Virus record (IMG/VR): IMGVR_UViG_3300037808_000554
Span: 1-34,799 of that record
Direction: 5' to 3' (one strand)
Origin: a virus
Length of the DNA: 34,799 nt
Positions 1 through 34,799 of the stretch are shown piece by piece (position 1 is the stretch's first letter; each line of letters opens with the position of its first letter). Under the pieces are notes generated by a model. That model had not been told where the DNA came from. It did not search any database and saw only the letters and a program-made list of their open reading frames with translations. The position numbers were made by a program, and so were the translations under genes.

Positions 1-176
1 TTTGTGGGTATCAAGGTTTCCTCAGGAGAGACTTGAGGTAATTCGTGGTCAAATGGGGCAAGTTGCTTACGACAGGACATATCGTAACAAACCCCTCTCT
101 GCAAGTATGGATTTGTTCAAAAGAGAGTGGCTTTACAAATGTCAATCTCATAATCATAAATGGTTAGACAGCTATT
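1..176. repeat. Terminal direct repeat, left copy (assembly overlap)
   Basis: These 176 bases recur at 34624-34799. All differ-free except eight positions between 25 and 49, which change three residues of the terminase (E/K, V/E, R/Q). The repeat lies inside a single gene that becomes complete when the ends are joined, so it is best read as the overlap of a circular or circularly permuted genome and not as a biological terminal repeat. The clustered differences point to two strain variants in the sample. Confidence 0.9.
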
Positions 177-19706: not shown

Positions 19707-19824
19707 ATTTTATTAACTCCTTTTTCAACCAATTCAATTAAGTGGTTATCATTGCCTTGTATAACTGCGTCATACATCGCTTCTTCATTTTCAAGGCATC
19801 TTCCTTGATTTTATAGATTTTCAT
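19703..19824 (-). pseudogene. Small ORF apparently broken by a one-base indel
   Basis: From ATG 19824 (overlapping the end of the upstream methyltransferase) the frame reads MKIYKIKEDALK, then meets an AAAA run; in the -1 frame the sequence continues NEEAMYDAVIQGNDNHLIEL to a TGA at 19703 that forms an ATGA overlap with the next gene. Joined, they give a plausible 40-residue protein, while the uninterrupted frame stops after 28 residues with an unnatural composition. Either a frameshift mutation or an assembly error at the A-run. Confidence 0.4.
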
Positions 19825-20536
19825 TGATTCGCTTCTCTGCAATTTTGAAATAATTTTCATCCAATTCAATACCGATAAAATTGCGATTTGTATTGACACA
19901 TGCAACTCCTGTCGTGCCTGAACCCATCGTGAAGTCGAGCACCGTTTCGCCCTCATTTGTGTAGGTTTTTATTAGATATTCCATAAGTGCTACTGGTTTT
20001 TGAGTTGGGTGTTTTCTGTTTTTATCACCTTCGGTTGCTACAAACTGTATAGACCTTGGATAATTTCCGATTTTTTGAACATAGTCACCACCATCATAAT
20101 TTGAATATAGGTTTGAACTTTTGTTTTTTCTTCCATTTTTAATATTAACCTCAACTGTCCCCTGCGGGTAGTAATTTACTTTTTCTTTACTAAAAACTAA
20201 TATATTTTCATGTTCTTTTAGTGGTTGCGTTTTCACTTGATAAAAGTTAGTAGGTTTTTGCTTCTTCCACACCCAATCATACTTGTAATTCTTAATATTA
20301 CTCATTCTCAAAGCACTACTAAAAGGCTCACTACCAAAAAGAACTATAGCACCATTTGGTTTTATTAGTTTGTTTAGTCTTTTCCACATCTCATCAAAAG
20401 GAATTATACTATCCCATTTACACGCTGTTGTCCCATAAGGAGGGTCTGTTATTATTGCATCAACTATTACACCTTTAGCTATCAACTCATCCATAACCTC
20501 TAAACAGTCGCCTTTGTATAAATCTATCTTTACCAT
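19811..20536 (-). CDS. DNA amino-methyltransferase, DPPY type (probable N6-adenine)
   Basis: 241 residues, beta-class order: motif IV ITDPPYGTT (30-37) near the N-terminus, motif I VLDFTMGSGTTG (199-210) near the C-terminus, then FIGIELDENYF. DPPY is the usual signature of N6-adenine (sometimes N4-cytosine) methyltransferases. HPTQKPVALMEYLI (176-189) is also standard. No restriction endonuclease is adjacent, so it is probably an orphan enzyme protecting phage DNA or marking it. Its first codons and last ~17 residues are almost identical in DNA to those of the next methyltransferase upstream. Confidence 0.92.
   Translation of the reverse strand: MVKIDLYKGDCLEVMDELIAKGVIVDAIITDPPYGTTACKWDSIIPFDEMWKRLNKLIKPNGAIVLFGSEPFSSALRMSNIKNYKYDWVWKKQKPTNFYQVKTQPLKEHENILVFSKEKVNYYPQGTVEVNIKNGRKNKSSNLYSNYDGGDYVQKIGNYPRSIQFVATEGDKNRKHPTQKPVALMEYLIKTYTNEGETVLDFTMGSGTTGVACVNTNRNFIGIELDENYFKIAEKRINENL
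19822..19876. repeat. 55-base repeat, copy 1 (3' end of DPPY methyltransferase)
   Basis: Matches 20583-20637 at 54 of 55 positions (difference at 19832/20593). It encodes the shared C-terminal IGIELDENYFKIAE(K/N)RIN of the two amino-methyltransferases. Identity at DNA level, including silent positions, suggests a recent duplication or gene conversion. Confidence 0.85.
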
Positions 20537-20551
20537 CTTTCAACTCCTTAT
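20527..20551. repeat. 25-base direct repeat, copy 1 (start of DPPY methyltransferase)
   Basis: Identical to 21329-21353. On the minus strand it contains the ribosome site TAAGGAG and the first codons (MVKI) of the methyltransferase gene, so both amino-methyltransferase genes begin with the same DNA. Confidence 0.85.
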
Positions 20552-21339
20552 TGTGGACGCAAACGAGAAAATAAATCTTCTGCATTGATTCGATTCTCTG
20601 CAATTTTGAAATAATTTTCATCCAATTCAATACCGATGAAGTTACGGTTTATTTGTTTCGCCATCTTACCTGTTGTCCCACTACCCATAAATGGGTCAAG
20701 AATATTGTCACCTTCATTGCTCCACGAAATAATATGGTCTTTTGCTAACTTTTCTGGAAATACTGCTGGATGATTCTTTGCATCTTTTGATTTTGTTGGG
20801 CAGATAGTCCAGAGATTTTCGGCATCTTTTGTTTCTCTATCACAATCTATAGTTTTTAGAATTTGAGAACCATCTTTTTGCCTAAAATATGATTTTTCAC
20901 CTTTATAATTCTTCCTCACTTTTTCTTGTTGTATTGGCGTAAACGATTTTGGCTTGCCTTTGGAAAACACAAACATATATTCAAACGTGTTTGCATACCT
21001 TCTCAATGTTGGGTAGGCTGGAGCGTAGTTGCTTTTATGATAAATCATTGTGTCCAGAAGATTGAATCCGCAATCTTCAACAAAATATATTGCCTGTTTG
21101 AACGATGTTAAAGACTCACAGAAATTCTTAGTTTCATCTCCAACAACCCAAACAACAACACCACCCTTTTTGGTAACCCTAAACAATTCCTTAGCAATAC
21201 TTTCAAAATCAAATGAATACCCGTTATAATCACGCAAATTGTCATATGGTGGAGAGGTAACTGTTAAATCAATACTTCCATCATGAATATCTTTCATCTT
21301 CTCCAAGCAATCACCTTGTATCAATTCAATCTTTACCAT
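20548..21339 (-). CDS. DNA amino-methyltransferase, SPPY type (probable N4-cytosine)
   Basis: 263 residues. Motif IV TVTSPPYDNLRDY (27-39) is the SPPY form typical of N4-cytosine methyltransferases; motif I ILDPFMGSGTTG (213-224) and FIGIELDENYF (234-244) follow. Ends LFSRLRPQ, beyond the point where the neighbour DPPY enzyme stops; these last codons are one arm of the 21-bp inverted repeat. Start ATG 21339 overlaps the 52-residue upstream gene by 14 bases. No partner nuclease is seen. Confidence 0.92.
   Translation of the reverse strand: MVKIELIQGDCLEKMKDIHDGSIDLTVTSPPYDNLRDYNGYSFDFESIAKELFRVTKKGGVVVWVVGDETKNFCESLTSFKQAIYFVEDCGFNLLDTMIYHKSNYAPAYPTLRRYANTFEYMFVFSKGKPKSFTPIQQEKVRKNYKGEKSYFRQKDGSQILKTIDCDRETKDAENLWTICPTKSKDAKNHPAVFPEKLAKDHIISWSNEGDNILDPFMGSGTTGKMAKQINRNFIGIELDENYFKIAENRINAEDLFSRLRPQ
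20551..20571. repeat. 21-bp inverted repeat, arm 1
   Basis: Exact reverse complement of 21359-21379. The arms bracket the SPPY methyltransferase gene almost exactly (787 bases between). This arm codes for the last residues and stop region of that gene; the other arm lies within the small upstream gene. Confidence 0.9.
20583..20637. repeat. 55-base repeat, copy 2 (3' end of SPPY methyltransferase)
   Basis: Second copy of the near-identical 3' border described at 19822-19876. Confidence 0.85.
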
Positions 21340-21499: not shown

Positions 21500-22369
21500 T
21501 TAAACCATTGAATCGTCATAAGATTGCATATATCCAAACGCCCTAAGTGTTCTTATCTTCTCTAGGGCATCTTCCTTGATTTGTTGAATACGACTACCGC
21601 TCAAGCCTAGCATTATCCCTATACTCTTGAACTCCAAAGCGTCATTGCCCTCAAGTCCGTAGTATAGCTTCAACACCCGCGCCTCTTTGGGTGTCAAGTT
21701 GCAGAGCATCAGCTCAATACAATCGTTAAGGCTTTCGACAGCGAGTGCATGGTCTGGCAAGTGTCCTGACGTATCCTCAAGGAAGTCTAAGAATGTATCC
21801 CCATCTTCGTTGCCCACAAAATCATCAAGCGACAGTCCGTCACTAAGAAGCGGAGCTGTGTCGTTTATTACGCTGACTGAAACACCAAGCTCTTTTGCAA
21901 TCTCCTCCCTAGTCGGCTCTCGTTGTAGTTTTTGTAGCAATACGCCAGATACTTTTTTGGTTTTGTTTACCACTTGAGACTTGTCAAGTGGCATCCTGAC
22001 AGCTTTTGAATAGTCGCCAATCGCTTTATGGATTGACCTCTTTATCCACCAAACAGCATAGGATATAAACTTTAACTCTTTAGTTTCATCAAATGTTTGA
22101 GCAGCACGAATGAGTCCCATGTTGCCCTCACATATTAAGTCCTCAAGTGGAATACCAAAGTTGGTAAACTTCTTGGCAACGGTAACTACAAACCGCAGGT
22201 TGGAATTAACTAGCCTGTCTAGTGCCTCCTTGTCACCCCTGCGGATACTGCGAGCTAACTCACACTCTTGTTGAATGGTGAGTATTGGGTAGGCATCTAT
22301 TTCTTTGAAATAAATATCCATGCTTGTTGGTTTCTTGTCATTTTTTTGTAGTGAGCTTACTTGCTTCAT
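21500..22369 (-). CDS. Sigma-70 family RNA polymerase sigma factor
   Basis: 289 residues, like the short primary-type sigma factors lacking region 1.1: region 1.2 (DIYFKEIDAYPILT, 18-31), region 2 (NLRFVVTVAKKF, GNMGLIRAAQTFD, ISYAVWWIKRSI 102-113), region 3 (REPTREEIAKELGVS), region 4 (LTPKEARVLKLYYGL, IMLGLSGSRIQQIKEDAL 252-269). It would direct host RNA polymerase to phage promoters. Residues at the promoter-reading positions differ from E. coli sigma-70 (see findings), so altered specificity is likely. AAGGA precedes ATG 22369; overlaps the RuvC-like gene by 32 bases. Placed in the leftward arm, it may switch on the rightward late operon. Confidence 0.92.
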   Translation of the reverse strand: MKQVSSLQKNDKKPTSMDIYFKEIDAYPILTIQQECELARSIRRGDKEALDRLVNSNLRFVVTVAKKFTNFGIPLEDLICEGNMGLIRAAQTFDETKELKFISYAVWWIKRSIHKAIGDYSKAVRMPLDKSQVVNKTKKVSGVLLQKLQREPTREEIAKELGVSVSVINDTAPLLSDGLSLDDFVGNEDGDTFLDFLEDTSGHLPDHALAVESLNDCIELMLCNLTPKEARVLKLYYGLEGNDALEFKSIGIMLGLSGSRIQQIKEDALEKIRTLRAFGYMQSYDDSMV

Positions 22370-27835: not shown

Positions 27836-28114
27836 TTATTTACTTTTGTCAACCTGTACCAACTCAAACCTAGGAATTACAATCCCTTGCTTCTCCCAGA
27901 ACCTTATCAGCTTCTTGACCGTCTCCAAGTGTGGTGTCCCTACATGCTCCTCAAGGTGCTGAATCGTAGGTCGTGAGATTTTGATTTGAATCGCAAGCTC
28001 ACTCCTGCTTAGACCAGACCTCTCTCTGATGTCTATCCAGTCGGTAGACATGTACCTCAAGTAATCAGGTTCAAGCAGTCTGTTCCTCTTGGCGTGGTAA
28101 TTTGGCTTACCCAT
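27836..28114 (-). CDS. HTH regulator (XRE/Cro-CI type)
   Basis: 92 residues from ATG 28114 (TAATG overlap with the ERF gene, GGAGG 7-8 bases upstream). The helix-turn-helix is about 26-70: DIRERSGLSRSELAIQIKIS, RPTIQHLEEHVGTPHLETV, the classic 'R...S..ela...gis..ti...E' pattern. Preceded by a basic N-terminus. Its gene ends right before the promoter/palindrome block at 27762-27835, so it may repress that promoter. No integrase accompanies it, so it is not by itself proof of lysogeny. Confidence 0.82.
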   Translation of the reverse strand: MGKPNYHAKRNRLLEPDYLRYMSTDWIDIRERSGLSRSELAIQIKISRPTIQHLEEHVGTPHLETVKKLIRFWEKQGIVIPRFELVQVDKSK

Positions 28115-28785
28115 TACTTTTCCTCCAACTGCAAAATCATCTTGCATCTTGAACACTCGGCTATCATTTCGTCTAACCAATGTTCTGCTCTTGCTTGGTC
28201 GCTATGCTTTTTGTAAATGTTGCCAATATGCACAGTAGATTTGGACTCCTTGATTTTTCCCAGTATTTCCTCTTTAGTAGCCTTGTCATCCTCTGGTGTG
28301 ATGGTTGGCATTTCAGCTTCTTGTTGTGCAGGTTCAGGTGCTTTCTTTGGTTTTGGTTTTGGTGCAGGCTTGGTTGCCTTCGACTCGTTGTTATACTCGT
28401 CTGTGTCTGCGTCCTTAGTGTCATCTAGTAGGAACATTCCGTTGGCTGCGTACTTGCGAGCGTAGGAACTTGCCGTTCCTGTTATTTGACTATCGTCCAT
28501 TCCTTTCCTGTCCTCCGTCTCCCTTGCACACGCGGTAACCTGGACAGCCTCGCCTGAGAGCGTCAAGGTTAGCTCTGCTTCGACATAGTACCTGTCGCCT
28601 ATGTGTCTGATTGAGTCAGATGCAGTGAGCGTACAGTCACCCAGCAATGGCTTGACAGCCTTGCAGATGTCCTCAAAGTTTCGATACATATACTTGCCAA
28701 AGTTATTTCTCTGGTCTTTTGGGACATGAAGTCCCTGTTGGATTCTTGCCAGTTCTGAGTGAACTGTTTTCTTAGCTGTTGTCAT
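28114..28785 (-). CDS. ERF-family single-strand annealing protein
   Basis: 223 residues. ERF core: KYMYRNFEDICKAVKPLL (31-48), then GMDDSQITGTASSYARKY (95-112) and AANGMFLLDDTKDADT, the family's signature block. A Pro/Lys linker (about 138-153) leads to a helical tail with two Cys. It anneals homologous single strands in phage recombination, working with SSB and the RuvC-like resolvase encoded downstream. TAATG-coupled to genes on both sides. Confidence 0.93.
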   Translation of the reverse strand: MTTAKKTVHSELARIQQGLHVPKDQRNNFGKYMYRNFEDICKAVKPLLGDCTLTASDSIRHIGDRYYVEAELTLTLSGEAVQVTACARETEDRKGMDDSQITGTASSYARKYAANGMFLLDDTKDADTDEYNNESKATKPAPKPKPKKAPEPAQQEAEMPTITPEDDKATKEEILGKIKESKSTVHIGNIYKKHSDQARAEHWLDEMIAECSRCKMILQLEEK

Positions 28786-29112: not shown

Positions 29113-29206
29113 CCCATCTTTCTCCAGATTATCATCACATTCCTCCGTTCATGTTTACCTCATCGACACAACTTATTTATATGTCGATATTTTCCCAGCA
29201 TTTACG

Positions 29207-29338
29207 CTATTTACGCCTTATGTGCCGATTCAGCTCATATACACCCCATATCAAGCATGTGGTCATAGACAGAACTGAAAGAACAGCCATCGCCATCATG
29301 CAAACAGGTATAACGATTTCAACAATTTTATCTAGCAT
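29207..29338 (-). CDS. Small membrane protein (43 residues)
   Basis: One long hydrophobic segment (IVIPVCMMAMAVLSVLSMTT) and a basic end (NRHIRRK). ATG 29338 is 4 bases from the preceding stop; GGGGTGG acts as ribosome site. Unknown. Confidence 0.5.
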   Translation of the reverse strand: MLDKIVEIVIPVCMMAMAVLSVLSMTTCLIWGVYELNRHIRRK

Positions 29339-29341
29339 TAT

Positions 29342-29608
29342 TTACCACCCCGTTCCGTTTAATAAAAGTACCAGCCTTGCCAGCAGAACGCCAGCCAGCA
29401 TCCAGCCAGCACGAGACAGGACTATGCTCAGCCTGTTGAACCTGTCATCAACTGTCTTGACCCTGAACTGAGCAGTAGCCAGTGAGCAGTCCTCCAACCG
29501 TTCGAGGTACTCCACACAATCCACTGCCTGACTATGGCTAGTAAACATTGCCTTAGTCTCCCACTTGCCGAGACTCTGCTTTTCTTGCAAGTGGTACATT
29601 TTACTCAT
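29342..29608 (-). CDS. Hypothetical protein with C-terminal membrane anchor
   Basis: 88 residues. Soluble N-terminal part (QSLGKWETKAMFTSHSQAVD, CVEYLERLEDC) and a C-terminal membrane segment (AGWMLAGVLLARLVLLLN). AGGAGG 7 bases before ATG 29608. Tail-anchored topology; function unknown. Confidence 0.6.
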   Translation of the reverse strand: MSKMYHLQEKQSLGKWETKAMFTSHSQAVDCVEYLERLEDCSLATAQFRVKTVDDRFNRLSIVLSRAGWMLAGVLLARLVLLLNGTGW

Positions 29609-29619
29609 CTCTCAACCTC

Positions 29620-29781
29620 CTAATTTTCCCCACATAGGCTAAACAGCCTGGTTAGCCAGGATATAATCCTGTAGTTTGATTTTGGTTTAACCGGTTCTGA
29701 TTTGTCCCATGACGGGCCGAGTGATCTGACTGTTTTACTTACTGGCATTGCCTCCATTTTCCCCAGCATATCATCGCTCAT
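29620..29781 (-). CDS. Small hypothetical protein (53 residues)
   Basis: MSDDMLGKMEAMPVSKTVRS, then a basic Pro/Lys segment and SWLTRLFSLCGEN. GGGGAAAAT precedes ATG 29781. Ends 11 bases before the next start, with its stop inside that gene's AGGAGG site. Not recognised. Confidence 0.5.
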   Translation of the reverse strand: MSDDMLGKMEAMPVSKTVRSLGPSWDKSEPVKPKSNYRIISWLTRLFSLCGEN

Positions 29782-29842
29782 ATTTTCCCCGCTTTTTTCA
29801 GAAACAGCCTTATAGTGAAATAATCCCCACTACTTTACTATT

Positions 29843-29938
29843 TCAGCCTTGCATAATCTCGATCTTGCACACTGCTAGTGCCAGCGTAACCGCCAACAGA
29901 ATTATAAAAGCAATGCTTTTTAGTGTTCGCATGTTCAT
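29843..29938 (-). CDS. Tiny membrane or exported peptide (31 residues)
   Basis: MNMRTLKSIAFIILLAVTL followed by ALAVCKIEIMQG: basic start, one hydrophobic helix, a Cys at its end (not a proper lipobox). GGAAGGGG upstream of ATG 29938. Unknown. Confidence 0.45.
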   Translation of the reverse strand: MNMRTLKSIAFIILLAVTLALAVCKIEIMQG

Positions 29939-29988
29939 GATTTACCCCTTCCGTTATTGGTGTGCCTGGTAGGGTTTAGTTGTTGCTT

Positions 29989-30099
29989 TCATTGTCCATT
30001 ACCTCCAGTTTTTACCAGAAAATCCTTATTATACCTTCGTACCGTTAGAAAATCCTTATTATACCTTCGTATCCAAAAATAATCCGGTCTACTTATCAT
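29989..30099 (-). CDS. Tiny basic ORF with in-frame duplication (36 residues)
   Basis: MISRPDYFWI, then RRYNKDFLTV and RRYNKDFLVK, then TGGNGQ. The two ten-residue units come from an exact 25-base repeat with 30-base period (30017-30041, 30047-30071). Starts in a TAATG overlap and ends in an ATGA overlap with a 12-codon ORF, typical of coupled genes. Very short; real expression is uncertain. Confidence 0.4.
   Translation of the reverse strand: MISRPDYFWIRRYNKDFLTVRRYNKDFLVKTGGNGQ
30017..30071. repeat. Tandem repeat, 25 identical bases at 30-base period
   Basis: Units at 30017-30041 and 30047-30071 are identical. The period is a multiple of three and keeps the frame of the tiny ORF that contains it. 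Confidence 0.85.
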
Positions 30100-30215
30100 T
30101 ATAGCCATCCTTCCGTTATTGCCAGTAATACTAGCAAGGTAATTATCATTGCTACCTGCGCAGTCACTAGCTTGTGACTATAAATTGTGTTAATCATTAC
30201 TGCCACCGTTTTCAT
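30099..30215 (-). CDS. Small membrane protein (38 residues)
   Basis: MKTVAVMINTIYSHKLVTAQ, then a hydrophobic helix VAMIITLLVLLAITEGWL. AGGAG about 9 bases before ATG 30215, in a leader resembling those of neighbouring small genes. Unknown function. Confidence 0.5.
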   Translation of the reverse strand: MKTVAVMINTIYSHKLVTAQVAMIITLLVLLAITEGWL

Positions 30216-30238
30216 TGTTCAATTCTCCTGTTAGTGTT

Positions 30239-30259
30239 AGGCAACCTGAATGATTGCCT
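30239..30259 (-). terminator. Small hairpin after 30268-30480 gene
   Basis: AGGCAA (30239-30244) pairs with TTGCCT (30254-30259), 9-base loop, in the gap between two small leftward genes. No T-tract; an intercistronic structure more than a strong terminator. Confidence 0.35.
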
Positions 30260-30267
30260 CGGTTTAA

Positions 30268-30480
30268 TTATCGCAAGTCTAACAATTCTACATCATCGAT
30301 AAGTGGCAGTTCGATTTCCAACTTGCCATCACTCTTATTAAAATAGATGCTTTCTATCGGAACTTCTGTGCCGTTTCCGTCCGACACTACAAATGCGATC
30401 GCATCATCAATGTAAGTATCAGAACTAGTTGCGTCGGACATTGCCTCTTCAAGTTCGCTTATTAATCTTCTAATATCCAT
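30268..30480 (-). CDS. Acidic hypothetical protein (70 residues)
   Basis: MDIRRLISELEEAMSDATSS, then a beta-like part (AIAFVVSDGNGTEVPIESIY, LEIELPLIDDVELLDLR). Start chosen at ATG 30480, 7 bases after GGAGG, because the preceding 'CACTTGAA..TGGAGGA' leader is shared with neighbouring genes. The frame is open to ATG 30585 (ATGA overlap with the upstream gene), which would add 35 residues made from a repeat that is non-coding elsewhere (30883-30924). Confidence 0.5.
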   Translation of the reverse strand: MDIRRLISELEEAMSDATSSDTYIDDAIAFVVSDGNGTEVPIESIYFNKSDGKLEIELPLIDDVELLDLR

Positions 30481-30535
30481 TCTATCTCCTCCAGATTCAA
30501 GTGTTTGTGGTATGTTCCAAAATGGAACCAACCAC

Positions 30536-30575
30536 TTTTTCCCAGATTTTCCCAGTAAACGCCTTATTACGCCTT
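30536..30575. repeat. Dispersed ~40-base repeat, copy 1
   Basis: TTTTTCCCAG-ATTTTCCCAG followed by TAAACGCCTTATTACGCCTT matches 30883-30924 with a one-base indel and one or two substitutions. A more diverged copy lies near 29188-29222. Confidence 0.7.
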
Positions 30576-30581
30576 TATCGC

Positions 30582-30797
30582 TCATTGTTCGATTACCTCC
30601 TGAATGATATTTTGATTATCGGAGTCGTGTTTCCAACCGCCCGTATGTTGGATACTGAACGGTTCGAGCGACAAATCAAATGTATTGATTATCTTATCAC
30701 GAATACCCAATTTGGTTGATGTCGCTGATTGTTCACCATGCGCCCAGGTGACAACACTTGTACCGTTTCTGTCTGTAACTATATATTCCAGTAGCAT
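30582..30797 (-). CDS. Hypothetical protein (71 residues)
   Basis: MLLEYIVTDRNGTSVVTWAH, HGEQSATSTKLGIRDKIINT, ending in IIQEVIEQ. AAGGGGTGAATA before ATG 30797. Not recognised. Confidence 0.6.
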   Translation of the reverse strand: MLLEYIVTDRNGTSVVTWAHGEQSATSTKLGIRDKIINTFDLSLEPFSIQHTGGWKHDSDNQNIIQEVIEQ

Positions 30798-30807
30798 TAT
30801 TCACCCC

Positions 30808-30867
30808 TTACAGGTCAGCGTTATATTTATAAGTTCCGTCTGTAAACTTGCTTATGTTGATGTTCAT
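30808..30867 (-). CDS. Tiny ORF (19 residues)
   Basis: MNINISKFTDGTYKYNADL with GGAGG 9 bases upstream, in the shared leader context. Could be a remnant of a longer gene or a leader peptide for the 71-residue gene. Confidence 0.3.
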   Translation of the reverse strand: MNINISKFTDGTYKYNADL

Positions 30868-30882
30868 TGTTCAATCCTCCAG

Positions 30883-30924
30883 TTTTTCCCAGATTTTCCC
30901 AGTAAAACGCCTTGTTACGCCTTA
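30883..30924. repeat. Dispersed ~40-base repeat, copy 2
   Basis: Second copy of the repeat at 30536-30575; here it lies in an untranslated leader. Confidence 0.7.
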
Positions 30925-30954
30925 CATAAAAATCTATCCTACGATTTTACAGGA

Positions 30955-31016
30955 CACAAGCTGCCATAGTTGATAGCTTGTACCTTGTGGCCTCTCGATT
31001 AGGAGGCCACAAGGTA
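30955..31016 (-). terminator. Tandem hairpins, terminator/attenuator-like
   Basis: TACCTTGTGGCCTC (30981-30994) pairs perfectly over 14 bp with 31003-31016 (8-base loop). ACAAGCT (30956-30962) pairs with AGCTTGT (30975-30981). CACAAG (30955-30960) could instead pair with CTTGTG (30984-30989), so the two hairpins compete. No T-run follows on either strand. Lies after the gene at 31024-31293 and before the next small genes. Confidence 0.6.
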
Positions 31017-31023
31017 TCGTCAA

Positions 31024-31293
31024 TCAGGCGTATACGCGGACTTCAACGAGGTTTCCGCTGCAATGTTGAGAGCTACCGTCTCGCGCCATGAGTTCAAGTT
31101 CAGTTGCCAGCTCCTCTAGTGCATCTTGATCGTTGTAATAGCTGCCGATCTCAACGTAACCGTGACGTATGAAGCCTACGTTGCAAGAAGTGCCATAACT
31201 GAGCCTGTCACCTATCCGCACAATAGTCCAGAGATCATAGTCGCCGTCGTTTCTTTTCAACTCCATAATTCCAATGTACTTCTCTGTTTTCAT
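31024..31293 (-). CDS. Hypothetical protein (89 residues)
   Basis: MKTEKYIGIMELKRNDGDYD, IVRIGDRLSYGTSC, then a helix DQDALEELATELELMARD and a short strand LVEVRVYA. Shared leader (CACTTGAAATTGGAGGATTG) before ATG 31293. Not recognised. Confidence 0.65.
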   Translation of the reverse strand: MKTEKYIGIMELKRNDGDYDLWTIVRIGDRLSYGTSCNVGFIRHGYVEIGSYYNDQDALEELATELELMARDGSSQHCSGNLVEVRVYA

Positions 31294-31335
31294 TGCTCAA
31301 TCCTCCAATTTCAAGTGTTGGCAGTCCAGAGCGGA

Positions 31336-31587
31336 CTATCCGTAAAATGCCATAACCGTGACCGTGTCTGCTAGGGCGTTGGCGGTTGCCCTGCATTCCA
31401 GGTTATCAATGTAGCTCCAGAAGCTACTTTCAACCTCCCGTTGAGCGCTAGTCTCTGCAGATTCAGCCAGTTGCAAATCGAACAGCCTGCCGTTTATAAA
31501 TGCTTCAATGCTTTCGAGCTCGGCGTCGCTTGCGTGACAGTTACCAGTAGCTGTAAGTTCACAATTCCAGTGTTTTGTTCTTTTCAT
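31336..31587 (-). CDS. Hypothetical protein (83 residues)
   Basis: MKRTKHWNCELTATGNCHAS, DAELESIEAFINGRLFDLQL, ESSFWSYIDNLECRATANAL. Start ATG 31587 after GGAGGATTGGACA; the longer in-frame start at 31608 lies in that leader. Helical. Not recognised. Confidence 0.6.
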   Translation of the reverse strand: MKRTKHWNCELTATGNCHASDAELESIEAFINGRLFDLQLAESAETSAQREVESSFWSYIDNLECRATANALADTVTVMAFYG

Positions 31588-31622
31588 TGTCCAATCCTCC
31601 ATTTTCAAGTGTTTGGGGCAAC

Positions 31623-31880
31623 CTATCCGCTTACCAGTATCCGTTGAATCTCAACAAGACTCTTCCCGTATGTACCGTTTCGCTTCTGACGCGAAATGTT
31701 ACGCTCCTGAAGGTAACTATCATAGGTTTGCTTATCAAAACCTTCAGCCTTGCAATGCTTATGTAGGCGGTCAATCTCAATGCTAGCTTGCTTCCAAGCC
31801 TTTGTGTCATAGCGGTTCATCATCTGAATCTCTTGATTGTCCACTATCTGTTTAAATGTCTCTTTTTGTGTTAGCTTCAT
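31623..31880 (-). CDS. First gene of leftward arm, hypothetical (85 residues)
   Basis: MKLTQKETFKQIVDNQEIQM, a helix with KAWKQASIEIDRLHKHCKAE, then RNISRQKRNGTYGKSLVEIQ. Start ATG 31880 with GGAGG 6 bases upstream; the longer in-frame reading to 32069 crosses the promoter and is rejected. Basic, helical, possibly nucleic-acid binding. The first product of the promoter at 31932-31960, so an early gene. Confidence 0.6.
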   Translation of the reverse strand: MKLTQKETFKQIVDNQEIQMMNRYDTKAWKQASIEIDRLHKHCKAEGFDKQTYDSYLQERNISRQKRNGTYGKSLVEIQRILVSG

Positions 31881-31931: not shown

Positions 31932-31960
31932 ACTATAACTATTATGTCGGCAAGTGTCAA
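31932..31960 (-). promoter_or_regulatory. Leftward early promoter
   Basis: On the minus strand: TTGACA (31960-31955), 17-base spacer, TATAGT (31937-31932). Consensus -35 and a near-consensus -10 indicate a host sigma-70 promoter driving the leftward arm; start about 31925, leader about 45 bases. Confidence 0.82.
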
Positions 31961-31969
31961 GTGACACTT
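31952..31969. promoter_or_regulatory. 18-bp palindromic operator over the -35
   Basis: AAGTGTCA-AG-TGACACTT: perfect 8-bp arms, covering the -35 hexamer of the early promoter. A 15/18 match lies at 32570-32587 and a half-site AAGTGTCAA at 32071-32079, so this is likely a repressor family of sites. The HTH protein at 27836-28114 is one candidate binder. Confidence 0.7.
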
Positions 31970-32401
31970 TACTTTTATTATTAACCAACTCAATAATCCC
32001 TTGCCAGGCTTGAATAAACAGACATAAAAAAAGATTGTAAGCCTGCACCTTGCAACCCTGCGGGAGCAAAAAGTGTCAAACCAAAGGTTACAGTTTAAGT
32101 ATCAGCAATTCGAGTAGTGTAGTAAAGTAGAGTAGTAACCGCACGCGCAAAAAGTCGCAAGCGACGGAACCAAGAAACCGGAGCCGGAGCCGGCGGTAGA
32201 TAGTGAGTCGGTTTGGCATCCATTATGGCGCACCACCTCCGCCTTGCTCAAAAACCATACGGCTGTTTTCTTACCAGTCACAAAGTACGCTGGGTGGTCA
32301 GGAAGTTACCGGTCACAAAATACGCAAGTGGTCAAGAATTTACCCCTATGCCCGTTGATAGATACCCGACCAGATGAGAGAGGGTGAGATAGAGGGGTGC
32401 T
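31970..32401. other. Non-coding control region, left part
   Basis: No convincing gene. Holds a half operator (32071-32079), a TTGC-CCC/GGG-GCAA hairpin near 32050-32069, a GTCGC-AA-GCGAC palindrome near 32153-32164, CCGGAG repeats near 32174, and the 34/35-base tandem repeat at 32271-32339. Candidate for origin, packaging site or regulatory switch. Confidence 0.6.
32271..32339. repeat. Tandem imperfect 34/35-base repeat
   Basis: Unit 1 (32271-32305) and unit 2 (32306-32339) share TTACC(A/G)GTCACAAA(G/A) then TACGC and GTGGTCA(G/A)GAA, with a one-base length difference. Iteron-like layout in the control region. Confidence 0.75.
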
Positions 32402-32560
32402 ATGAGTCCCACGACTATAAAATCTGGTAAAATAATGGGCACTGAGCTTTCCGGCAGGGTTAGAGCTGTAGATTTTGAAATATTTTTAAAATTATTTTTA
32501 GTATTGAGGAGCTATGAATTGGGGATTTGTGTTTTTTGGGAAAGCCCATTAATGGTGTGA
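32402..32560 (+). CDS. Possible small ORF in control region (52 residues)
   Basis: MSPTTIKSGKIMGTELSGRV, then a hydrophobic, helical VDFEIFLKLFLVLRSYEL. GAGGGG 4-5 bases before ATG 32402. Rightward, facing the terminase genes. Composition is plausible but AT-rich sequence around it makes chance possible. Confidence 0.3.
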   Translation: MSPTTIKSGKIMGTELSGRVRAVDFEIFLKLFLVLRSYELGICVFWESPLMV

Positions 32561-32954
32561 TTGGCTTTATAGTGTCAAGTAACATTTCCCTGTGTGTGTG
32601 GTTTGTCTATTCTCTACTACGCTTTTCTTGTCTAATCTAATCTTTGTATTTGGATTAGTTTTGAAATAGTTTAAGGTTAGATTTTTATTTATATCTACGA
32701 TTGTATTTGTGATTAACTAGACATGGGTTAGTATTGGGTCTAGGTATATCTCTACGGTTGTTTAACCTTGAAGATTCGGAGTGTTGCTCCGAGATTGCAG
32801 AGAACAGACCCCTGTTTTATGCGGTTTATGCAGATAGTTGGGGCATGGTTAATGAACTGACTGGGAATACAGGGTAGTTGGATTTGTTATACCGCATCGG
32901 GTATATTATATATGGTATGTGCTGGAATACAGCTAGATAGGGTATAATTTATTA
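32561..32954. other. Non-coding control region, right part
   Basis: AT-rich, no gene seen. Contains the second operator-like site (32570-32587), a CTAATC/GATTAG hairpin near 32635-32656, an imperfect direct repeat TATATCTACGATTGT / TATATCTCTACGGTTGT (near 32691 and 32746), the inverted pair CTAGAC/GTCTAG (32717-32743), a TATACC-GCATCG-GGTATA hairpin (32888-32905) and TATAAT (32943-32948) just before the tRNA-like sequence. Confidence 0.55.
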
Positions 32955-33025
32955 GCTGGGGTTAGCTTAATTGGTAGAGAACAGGTTGCATACTGTGGAT
33001 GTGGGTTCGACTCCCGCACCTCAGC
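32955..33025 (+). tRNA. Degenerate tRNA-like sequence, anticodon unclear
   Basis: Acceptor CTGGGGT (32956-32962) pairs with ACCTCAG (33018-33024) with one G-U; an extra G32955-C33025 pair precedes it. The T arm GTGGG-TTCGACT-CCCGC is canonical and AATTGGTAG is a normal D loop. But the D stem has only about two pairs and the anticodon stem is 4 bp (ACAG/CTGT) with an 8-base loop GTTGCATA. Insertion of one C would restore a normal stem. Readings of TGC (Ala) or GCA (Cys) are possible. No encoded CCA. Either a pseudogene or an unusual tRNA. Confidence 0.6.
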
Positions 33026-33149
33026 TATATTAAGTTATCGTGTTGAGTTTTTATTATGGTATTCGGTTGTGCTTGGATAGTATAGTTTGCTTGTTTGGCT
33101 CTATTGGCTAATATAGTTTACTTTCACATTTAGGATATGGTGTTGAATT
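33026..33149. promoter_or_regulatory. Leader before terminase operon
   Basis: 124 bases, AT-rich. A TATAGTTT(G/A)CTT element occurs twice (about 33079 and 33112), possible -10 regions for the late operon, but no clear -35 of sigma-70 type is seen at the right distance. A promoter for the phage sigma factor could lie here. The start codon at 33150 has only a weak, distant AGGAT. Confidence 0.35.
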
Positions 33150-33859: not shown

Positions 33860-34799
33860 TTGCCCGGACTTGGTTCAATACTACGAGAAGAAATAGGTGA
33901 GAGGCTTAATAAGTCCTCAGATGCTATTGAGGCTCGTAAAGATGTTAACAAGTTTGCTGAATACTGTTTTATAGCTGACGACAGCAAGCACTTTGTGCAA
34001 GCACCACATCATATACTACTTCATAAAGTTCGTGGTGAATCTGACAGGCAGATAGTTTGGTTTCCTGTAGAGCATGGCAAGACCCAGCAGGCTAAAGTAA
34101 TGATACTGCATGAAATGGGTCGTCATCCGTCACAGCAATATGCTTATGTTTCATCTAAATCCGACCAAGCGACCAAGTTCGTAGCATCAGTTGGCCGTGA
34201 GATTATAAAGAACATCCGGATTAGCGATGTCTTCCCACACTTAAAGCCTCAACAATCTTCTACATCGAGAGCTTATGAGCAGTGGGGCGACACCGCAATT
34301 CGTATTCAGGGCGCACCTCCCGGAGCTAAAGACCCATCACTTGCTGCTTATGGTATAGATGGTCAGATTCTAGGCTCAAGGCTACACGGTATTGTGCTGG
34401 ATAATATTTTAGATAGGTCAAACACTCAAACTCAGACCATGCGTGAGAAAACTCTAAGCATAATTGAGACAGAAATTCTGCAGCGATTGCTTCCCGGTGG
34501 TTGGATTTTGATAATCGACACCGCATGGCACATAGATGACGCTTTGCACCAGTTAAGTAGACGAGAAGGCTGGGATAGCGTCAAACTGGACGCAGAGGTT
34601 GGAATTGTCGAGGGTGATGAAAGTTTGTGGGTATCAAGGTTTCCTCAAAAAAGACTTGAGGAGATTCAGGGACAAATGGGGCAAGTTGCTTACGACAGGA
34701 CATATCGTAACAAACCCCTCTCTGCAAGTATGGATTTGTTCAAAAGAGAGTGGCTTTACAAATGTCAATCTCATAATCATAAATGGTTAGACAGCTATT
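33860..34799 (+). CDS. terL: Terminase large subunit, N-terminal (ATPase) part, runs off window
   Basis: Starts at TTG 33860 (PGLGSILREEIGERL...), the only usable start since TAA lies two codons upstream; AAGGA is 9 bases away. Walker A-like VWFPVEHGKTQQAKV (about residues 74-88) is the deviant HGKT form of phage terminases; Walker B is LHGIVLDNILD, where Asn replaces the more usual Asp/Glu after the first Asp. The gene continues at position 2 of the window after removing the 176-base overlap. Powers DNA translocation into the prohead. Full length about 497 residues. Confidence 0.9.
   Translation, partial: MPGLGSILREEIGERLNKSSDAIEARKDVNKFAEYCFIADDSKHFVQAPHHILLHKVRGESDRQIVWFPVEHGKTQQAKVMILHEMGRHPSQQYAYVSSKSDQATKFVASVGREIIKNIRISDVFPHLKPQQSSTSRAYEQWGDTAIRIQGAPPGAKDPSLAAYGIDGQILGSRLHGIVLDNILDRSNTQTQTMREKTLSIIETEILQRLLPGGWILIIDTAWHIDDALHQLSRREGWDSVKLDAEVGIVEGDESLWVSRFPQKRLEEIQGQMGQVAYDRTYRNKPLSASMDLFKREWLYKCQSHNHKWLDSY
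34624..34799. repeat. Terminal direct repeat, right copy (assembly overlap)
   Basis: Matches 1-176; differs at eight positions within 34648-34672 only. See left copy. Confidence 0.9.

Follow-up and report, generated by a model that had tools for sequence, protein, structure and literature searches.

Phages keep many of their fast-changing accessory functions in arrays of tiny orphan genes, and it is unsettled how a newly captured gene in such a place gets expressed at once. The question is raised by the virus record IMGVR_UViG_3300037808_000554, the whole of which (34,799 bases) is here called the window. Between 29.3 and 31.9 kb it carries an array of about a dozen tiny minus-strand genes, several of which are preceded by the same short leaders, some with longer repeats above them. 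What are these reused sequences, and why should they stand in front of genes that encode unrelated proteins? The reuse of leaders is real and non-random, and the exchange of genes at the elements is its most interesting part. Judged from the sequence, the leaders are best read, with a probability of roughly 0.55, as translation-initiation elements that are partly fused to transcription-punctuation elements and that double as homologies for gene exchange.

Leaders shared beyond the Shine-Dalgarno core

The comparison covers 13 ATG starts, from 29338 to 31880, picked by eye from the list of open reading frames (ORFs) and the sequence, with tiny ORFs included. Two leader types are found among them. 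Type A, ACACTTGAANNTGGAG, is present exactly at three of the 13 (31587, 31293 and 30480), just as a preliminary description of the window had it, and these are its only exact matches in the window. Type B, TCTGGnAAAAACTGGAGG, is found at two, 30867 and 29992. These two starts, together with that at 30215, had been described as bearing shorter forms of the first leader; all three starts are real, but 30867 and 29992 carry the second leader type and 30215 only the downstream part. A further string, GGAGRATTGNNCAATGAA, is common to four of the 13. The leaders and the genes behind them (lengths in amino acids, aa) are as follows.

31588-31618, minus strand: type A leader of the 83-aa gene at 31587, CCCCAAACACTTGAAAATGGAGGATTGGACA
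31336-31587, minus strand: 83-aa protein without a convincing family match
31294-31321, minus strand: type A leader of the 89-aa gene at 31293, CCAACACTTGAAATTGGAGGATTGAGCA
31024-31293, minus strand: 89-aa protein with a homologue in the tiny-gene array of an unrelated contig (L095:7816-8013)
30481-30510, minus strand: type A leader of the 70-aa gene at 30480, CCACAAACACTTGAATCTGGAGGAGATAGA
30268-30480, minus strand: 70-aa protein; its allele in the sister phage contig L010 is 77% identical and has the same leader in front
29993-30019, minus strand: short type B leader, TCTGGTAAAAACTGGAGGTAATGGACA, of a 12-aa ORF that L010 shares
29957-29992, minus strand: that 12-aa ORF (MKATTKPYQAHQ); L010 has the same peptide, the sole difference within the ORF being at 29963
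30211-30228, minus strand: only the downstream part, GGAGAATTGAACAATGAA, which extends into the start codon of the 38-aa gene (start 30215)
31623-31880, minus strand: first array gene, 85 aa, with a leader, ACACTACTCAAGCTGGAGG, that by eye is weakly type A-like

The repeated leader thus lies a few nucleotides (nt) from the start codons of several unrelated genes in a single orientation, and all exact matches to leaders and repeats are confined to the coding strand of the array, that is, to a minus-strand region of non-structural genes. The proteins behind common leaders are not paralogues, only the L010 alleles being similar, and whole-gene duplication is ruled out for this reason. Six array proteins of the window gave nothing at an E value below 0.01 against Pfam and PHROG.

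Could the leaders be ordinary strong ribosome-binding sites, made alike by base composition and by selection for initiation? Both types do contain GGAG, yet the likeness extends into the flanks outside the Shine-Dalgarno sequence, CACTTGAA and ATTGNNCA, and had it been limited to the core the proposal of a reused leader would have lost its ground. Over the 20 nt upstream of the Shine-Dalgarno sequence the best of the 78 array pairs score 13, 11, 11 and 10, with the next at 7, as against a best score of 8 among 780 control pairs drawn from 40 other starts of the same phage; none of the 780 reaches the four best array pairs. With exact repeats of 19-20 nt as well, this explanation is largely refuted and very unlikely.

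Pattern counts in the window agree. Even with up to three mismatches allowed, the 20-nt CACTTGAAAWTGGAGGATTG matches only at two places, exactly each time and on the minus strand within the array; the other strand and the reversed pattern give no match. For GGAGGATTGNNCAATGAA there are three exact matches and one with a single mismatch, where shuffled sequences give a mean of 0.38 and none of 100 reaches four. Pair scores and shuffles together rule out chance or base composition as the source of the likeness. At three mismatches ACACTTGAANNTGGAG is no rarer than chance (five matches against 3.87 expected, two of them outside the array among structural genes, with three mismatches each), and the evidence therefore lies in the exact matches. 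Nine phage records were scanned for the leader pattern and the repeat pattern: the three known to include array sequence match both, and the other six, which are fragments or a distant relative and not known to hold the array, match neither. The conserved bases outside GGAGG have, we presume, no obvious pairing with the usual tail of the 16S ribosomal RNA; the tail of the real host may differ.

A common 20-nt sequence over several starts would also suit the target of a small regulatory RNA, a role that the preliminary description had put forward. This part of its proposal found no support. No complementary copy of the 20-nt leader occurs in the window with up to three mismatches (host RNAs were not searched), there is no relevant Rfam match in 28.0-34.8 kb, and the leaders do not fold unusually. 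Of all the explanations weighed here a small RNA target is the least probable.

The type B repeat and the twin hairpin

In its well-kept form, which is found at L010:63-109 and 427-473, the repeat above the type B leader reads AAGGCGTAAT AAGGCGTTTT CTGGGAAAAT CTGGGAAAAA CTGGAGG, five units in a 10-nt register of which the last is the Shine-Dalgarno sequence itself. The window contains only one full copy, at 30876-30923 and with one extra A, accompanied by partial and diverged copies.

30868-30923, minus strand: type B cassette AAGGCGTAAC-AAGGCGTTTTA-CTGGGAAAAT-CTGGGAAAAA-CTGGAGG followed by ATTGAACA, before the 19-aa ORF at 30867
30956-31016, minus strand: twin hairpin upstream of the type B cassette, a perfect 14-bp stem and then a second stem, without a U tract
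30582-30797, minus strand: 71-aa ORF after the 19-aa ORF, its stop overlapping the ATG at 30585 (ATGA)
30532-30575, minus strand: second type B core without a Shine-Dalgarno sequence, about 50 nt above gene 30480 and followed by the type A leader
29779-29821, minus strand: diverged copy, which extends as far as the start of the 53-aa ORF (29781) and is 80% identical over 35 nt to an L010 copy
29189-29221, minus strand: weak diverged copy ATAAGGCGTAAATAGCGTAAATGCTGGGAAAAT, holding one end of a 556-nt segment absent from L010

The two good window copies, which had been described as a repeat of about 40 bases at 30536-30575 and 30883-30924, are confirmed, with limits of 30532-30575 and 30879-30923 (about 45 nt), and are 93% identical over 45 alignment columns; CTGGGAAAATCTGGGAAAA matches exactly in both, at 30537 and 30884, with 0.02 matches expected. 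The diverged copy reported near 29188 is present but weak: it is linked to the family through a reference at 28254, to which it is 70% and the 30883 copy 73% identical, and it does not pair with the good copies in blastn at an E value of 0.05. The repeat was also said to be in frame with a gene in one place, and this is so, as the ORF starting at 30585 reads through the type B core and on into gene 30480. In L010 the same core and leader follow a different sequence, a palindromic AT-rich element about 60 nt long, of which there are two copies within a 106-nt duplication (99% identical), and the in-frame core is therefore read as a by-product of a junction.

The twin hairpin folds strongly, with a z score of -5.5 for the whole window cassette, and related twin hairpins at L010:342-394 and 1663-1717 keep both stems in other sequence (-6.3 and -7.4 for the L010 hairpin segments); no shuffle equalled any of these. 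The hairpin of the B segment is moderate in two copies (z about -2.5) and weak in three (-1.3 to -1.7).

What would such a composite element do? The reused sequences may be start-associated control cassettes of an array of accessory genes that is probably expressed early. Several genes would carry a translation-initiation leader of 20-30 nt, made of a Shine-Dalgarno sequence and conserved flanks, and some of these leaders would be preceded by the segment of 10-nt direct repeats, itself behind a twin hairpin or, in L010, the palindromic AT-rich element. The upstream hairpin and repeat segment would separate or restart transcription between genes, in which case transcripts would be expected to end at the twin hairpin and to begin at AAGGCGTAA or a little upstream of it.

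The main rival to this reading is that the type B repeat is a DNA element, either an operator or a promoter for the phage's sigma factor or an activator, with the leader merely accompanying it as a ribosome-binding site. A 10-nt spacing would set protein sites on one face of the helix, and this is the periodicity of L010:63-109. Two type B cores, 30532-30575 and L010:1989-2032, are away from any start, so that type B is not purely translational; L010 has its palindromic element upstream of two copies, and the phage does encode a sigma factor. There is precedent too, in the available portions of the reports concerned, since the extended start-associated sequences (ESAS) of phage Adephagia contain putative promoters with inverted repeats (PMC11373665) and Microbacterium phage clusters EC and EI pair a sigma-factor gene with repeated intergenic motifs (PMC7302621). 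Against a DNA element, the sequence above the core varies between copies and has no common -35/-10 pair, and the copies that end directly in the Shine-Dalgarno sequence of a start codon, two in L010 and one in the window, point to a function in the mRNA. A DNA-binding role is thus a serious possibility, if the less probable of the two; it is compatible with the leader and exchange reading, and both can be true.

Further repeated sequence was noted around these elements. Directly above the type B leader of 29992 lie two tandem 30-nt repeats, 87% identical and each with TATAATAAGGA (30017-30076, minus strand). On the plus strand, AAAATCTGGTAAAA at 32419-32432 is a one-mismatch copy of the core AAAATCTGGGAAAA, in opposite orientation to the array, and sits in a 1.2-kb non-coding stretch before gene 33150; it is also found at the start of L005.

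Gene exchange at the elements

The array can be compared with one sister genotype. Downstream of the array, three long blocks of L010 (29,468 bases) match the window at 98% identity and the shorter blocks between them at 69-90%; L009 is the same genotype, with 12 mismatches in 12,480. L010 keeps the leaders, repeats and twin hairpin and has different genes around them. For instance, the 135 nt at 30876-31010, which comprise twin hairpin and repeat, match L010:342-473 at 96% identity, but the neighbouring genes on either side are not the same. Gene gain or loss at the repeats, which the preliminary description had proposed to look for in relatives, is seen at two junctions. The first is that of a segment missing from the sister phage.

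29202-29757, minus strand: 556-nt segment absent from L010, comprising ORFs 29608 and 29338 together with the 3' portion of ORF 29781; its junction falls in ATGCTGGG(G)AAAA

At this junction (29201|29758) the left flank is ATGCTGGGGAAAATGG, the right flank ATGCTGGGAAAATATCGAC and the L010 sequence ATGCTGGGGAAATATCGAC, from which it follows that the junction lies inside a copy of CTGGGAAAA. The second junction, 30207|30242, begins in the leader region: in place of the 34 nt at 30208-30241, L010 has 380 nt in which two other small ORFs (56 and 33 aa) start. The proposal that the array grew by gene shuffling with a common leader is thus supported, within this single sister genotype, by a cassette with different neighbours and by junctions within elements; the comparison does not fix the direction in which gene content changed. 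In all, six of seven block edges fall in elements, a count that is descriptive only, as several edges are ends of multi-copy matches and weak repeat sites added after the junctions were seen were included.

Since unrelated genes share the same leaders, these could also serve as short stretches of homology for the insertion, deletion or exchange of genes, with the phage-encoded single-strand annealing recombinase Erf as the probable agent. An Erf recombinase with its exonuclease is, in the portion of the report available, about as efficient as the lambda Red pair on identical and on 78% identical substrates (PMC3945230). Two close phages that differ in gene content at the elements link expression signals to gene exchange in a way that can be tested, and the repeats can be used as a search handle for accessory genes in related phages.

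Are the repeats then only recombination linkers, 'boundary sequences' spread with captured genes and without regulation beyond the Shine-Dalgarno sequence? Junctions do coincide with elements, and the Erf gene is in the adjoining block. Yet the leaders keep a fixed position relative to starts, and the exact copies have a single orientation. Between alleles, core, linker and leader also differ no more than the gene that follows: 88 of 92 compared positions are the same, with three gap columns, as against 164 of 189 and 24 gap columns in the gene, and over the leader at 30481-30505 it is 21 of 22 positions, with a 3-nt gap. Linkers alone are therefore an unlikely account. More doubtful still is a bolder version of the preferred reading, a plug-in system in which the sigma factor or an RNA-binding protein would read the cassette and Erf would insert foreign small genes that are enrolled at once in the early regulon; if true, this would be an integrase-free counterpart of a gene-cassette array.

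Several points weigh against the reading of the leaders as initiation elements that double as exchange homologies. The allele differences of the gene just mentioned are mostly in one central patch, the remainder being nearly identical, and the higher conservation of the leader is therefore weak evidence of selection. Only one sister genotype (L010, with L009) covers the array, and plain microhomology deletion, with no part for Erf, could account for both junctions. The leaders do not stand out as unstructured (P 0.21), and the short leader pattern at two mismatches gives one match to the reversed control in each of two records. For the upstream segments, a terminator scan gives the twin hairpin no score, there being no U tract; the two type B cores away from starts count here as well; and the B cassettes contain no consistent sigma-70 promoter, although the phage's own sigma factor may prefer other sites.

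The array was found only in L009, L010 and further cuts of the same two contigs, using as queries the leader pattern, two repeat patterns, gene 33150, the large terminase, Erf, gene 31293 and L010 gene 981. In all five near-identical contigs the match to the window ends at 31990-32845, short of the array, as it might in a variable region that breaks assemblies. L011, with an Erf 53% identical, has none of the motifs. An exact 20-mer match in L014 (9.2 kb) lies inside an ORF of a contig otherwise unlike the window and was treated as chance. No close isolate relative was found: the array region matches 87 phage records at one place each, and the 20 of these that are listed are matches of 118-143 nt at 72-74% identity to Streptococcus and Vibrio phages (2-3% of the query), which fall under hypothetical or Erf-like genes; three of the 87, outside these 20, are at 80-90%. 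A terminase fragment matches 96 records, all under 60% identity, and the cassette none. Within L010, genes 482, 981 and 2325 match PHROGs of unknown function, and relatives of gene 981 occur in 31 records of Mycobacterium, Gordonia and Erythrobacter phages. L010 also holds a 106-nt control segment in duplicate (1-106 and 1927-2032, 99% identical); the contig starts exactly at one copy, which suggests that more copies lie beyond its end.

Known systems and genomic setting

Start-associated repeats have already been described in other phages, and the present array is a differing form whose function is inferred. The function of such repeats is still unclear in the available portions of the literature from 2011 to 2025. 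Here the same kind of element is met in an uncultivated phage with a sigma factor that points to a host in the FCB (Fibrobacteres-Chlorobi-Bacteroidetes) group. The closest known kind, similar by layout and not by sequence, is that of the start-associated sequences (SAS) and ESAS of cluster K mycobacteriophages. As far as the available text of the two reports goes, SAS are short asymmetric repeats, a Shine-Dalgarno core with conserved flanks, placed a few nt before starts (PMC3203893, PMC11373665); the genes behind them belong to various families of the non-structural region, nearly all copies point the same way, and a subset has a longer upstream element. The array thus resembles them in having, in one orientation and in a non-structural region, a repeat that is conserved beyond the Shine-Dalgarno sequence and lies a few nt before unrelated genes. 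In the portion of PMC11373665 available, Adephagia has its parts in the order found here, a predicted stem-loop lying after gene 90 and before the ESAS/SAS of gene 91, and the argument from a lack of pairing with the 16S tail was made for SAS by Pope et al. in the part of PMC3203893 consulted.

The differences are equally clear. The 13-bp cluster K consensus GGGATAGGAGCCC has no match in the window with up to two mismatches. ESAS are 17-bp imperfect inverted repeats directly upstream of the SAS, whereas the extended element here consists of 10-nt direct repeats, and the arms of the L010 palindrome GTTGTATA...TATACAAC, which stands upstream of two copies, are absent from the window's array in a 7-nt search. 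Unlike in cluster K, two leader types coexist, and gene-content junctions within elements are seen directly.

Microbacterium phage clusters EC, EG and EI have repeated intergenic motifs, and one further cluster SAS/ESAS; there too the copies, 5 to 12 in number, lie ahead of gene starts in short intergenic stretches, and clusters EC and EI encode a sigma factor and EI an Erf system, both of which are present here (PMC7302621, available portion). The EC motifs lie 21-30 bp upstream of starts, above the ribosome-binding site, whereas here that site is included; the likeness is one of description only. In Citrobacter phage Mordin, according to the part of the announcement available, a 26-bp SAS-like repeat ending in ACTGGAGAATCTA precedes eight hypothetical genes (PMC4611695); its consensus has no match in the window with up to 8 of 26 mismatches. 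The particular leader of the window was not met in the available portions of the literature on phage start-associated repeats, and no search was aimed at its unpublished status.

A row of tiny genes behind repeated AAGGGGGATAA leaders is found in an unrelated phage contig, L095:7279-9160, which is also where the homologue of gene 31293 lies (E 2e-6). With up to three mismatches AAGGGGGATAA has nine matches in L095, three exact and two on the other strand, against 1.49 expected, and none of 200 shuffles reaches nine. This leader is simpler, being mostly the Shine-Dalgarno sequence itself, and the contig is otherwise unrelated to the window; since the row has its own repeated leader, reiterated leaders over tiny-gene arrays may recur, a suggestion that concerns two unrelated phages only.

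The record is that of a tailed phage, with PHROG matches on the plus strand to portal, major head protein, tape measure, endolysin and large terminase. Gene 33150 has no PHROG match and is by position only a putative small terminase. Minus-strand genes run from about 17.8 to 31.9 kb and include a single-strand DNA binding protein, a replication initiation protein, two DNA methyltransferases and the following.

31932-31960, minus strand: promoter-like TTGACA-N17-TATAGT just upstream of the array, overlapped by an 18-nt palindrome, AAGTGTCAAGTGACACTT (31952-31969)
28114-28785, minus strand: Erf, ERF-family single-strand annealing recombinase (PF04404, E 2e-32), in the block adjoining the array downstream
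21500-22369, minus strand: phage-encoded sigma factor of the primary FCB-group type, with sigma-70 regions 1.2, 2, 3 and 4

The TTGACA-17-TATAGT site is the best-scoring promoter-like site in 28.7-33.2 kb (11 of 12 positions) and probably drives the array. Among the best 80 of at least 595 matches, the top match of the sigma factor (52%) is the sigma gene of a Krumholzibacteriia metagenome-assembled genome (MAG), in a chromosomal-looking setting; most of the other 79 loci are labelled Gemmatimonadota, Bacteroidota, Calditrichota and similar, at 40-46%, with a few unplaced or oddly labelled (e.g. Sphingomonadales or Bifidobacterium MAGs). Because its relatives carry such labels, the host is likely to belong to the FCB group.

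The methyltransferase genes in 19811-21339 (minus strand), which start at 21339 and 20536, have near-identical leaders and first codons (AAGGAGTTGAAAGATGGTAAAGAT) and are a further case of a common start region, in adjoining genes. Window positions 1-165 and 34635-34799 contain the same terminase segment, near-identical and not exact, so that the genome is probably circular or circularly permuted and was closed over a strain variant. A tRNA gene lies at 32955-33026 (plus strand; Rfam tRNA 36.4 bits), its anticodon unreadable by ARAGORN. Finally, 33 nt at 32768-32800 with CGGAG...CTCCG arms, about 350 nt before gene 33150, are 94% identical to L008:771-803, a relative otherwise about 70% identical, and are perhaps a packaging or regulatory site.

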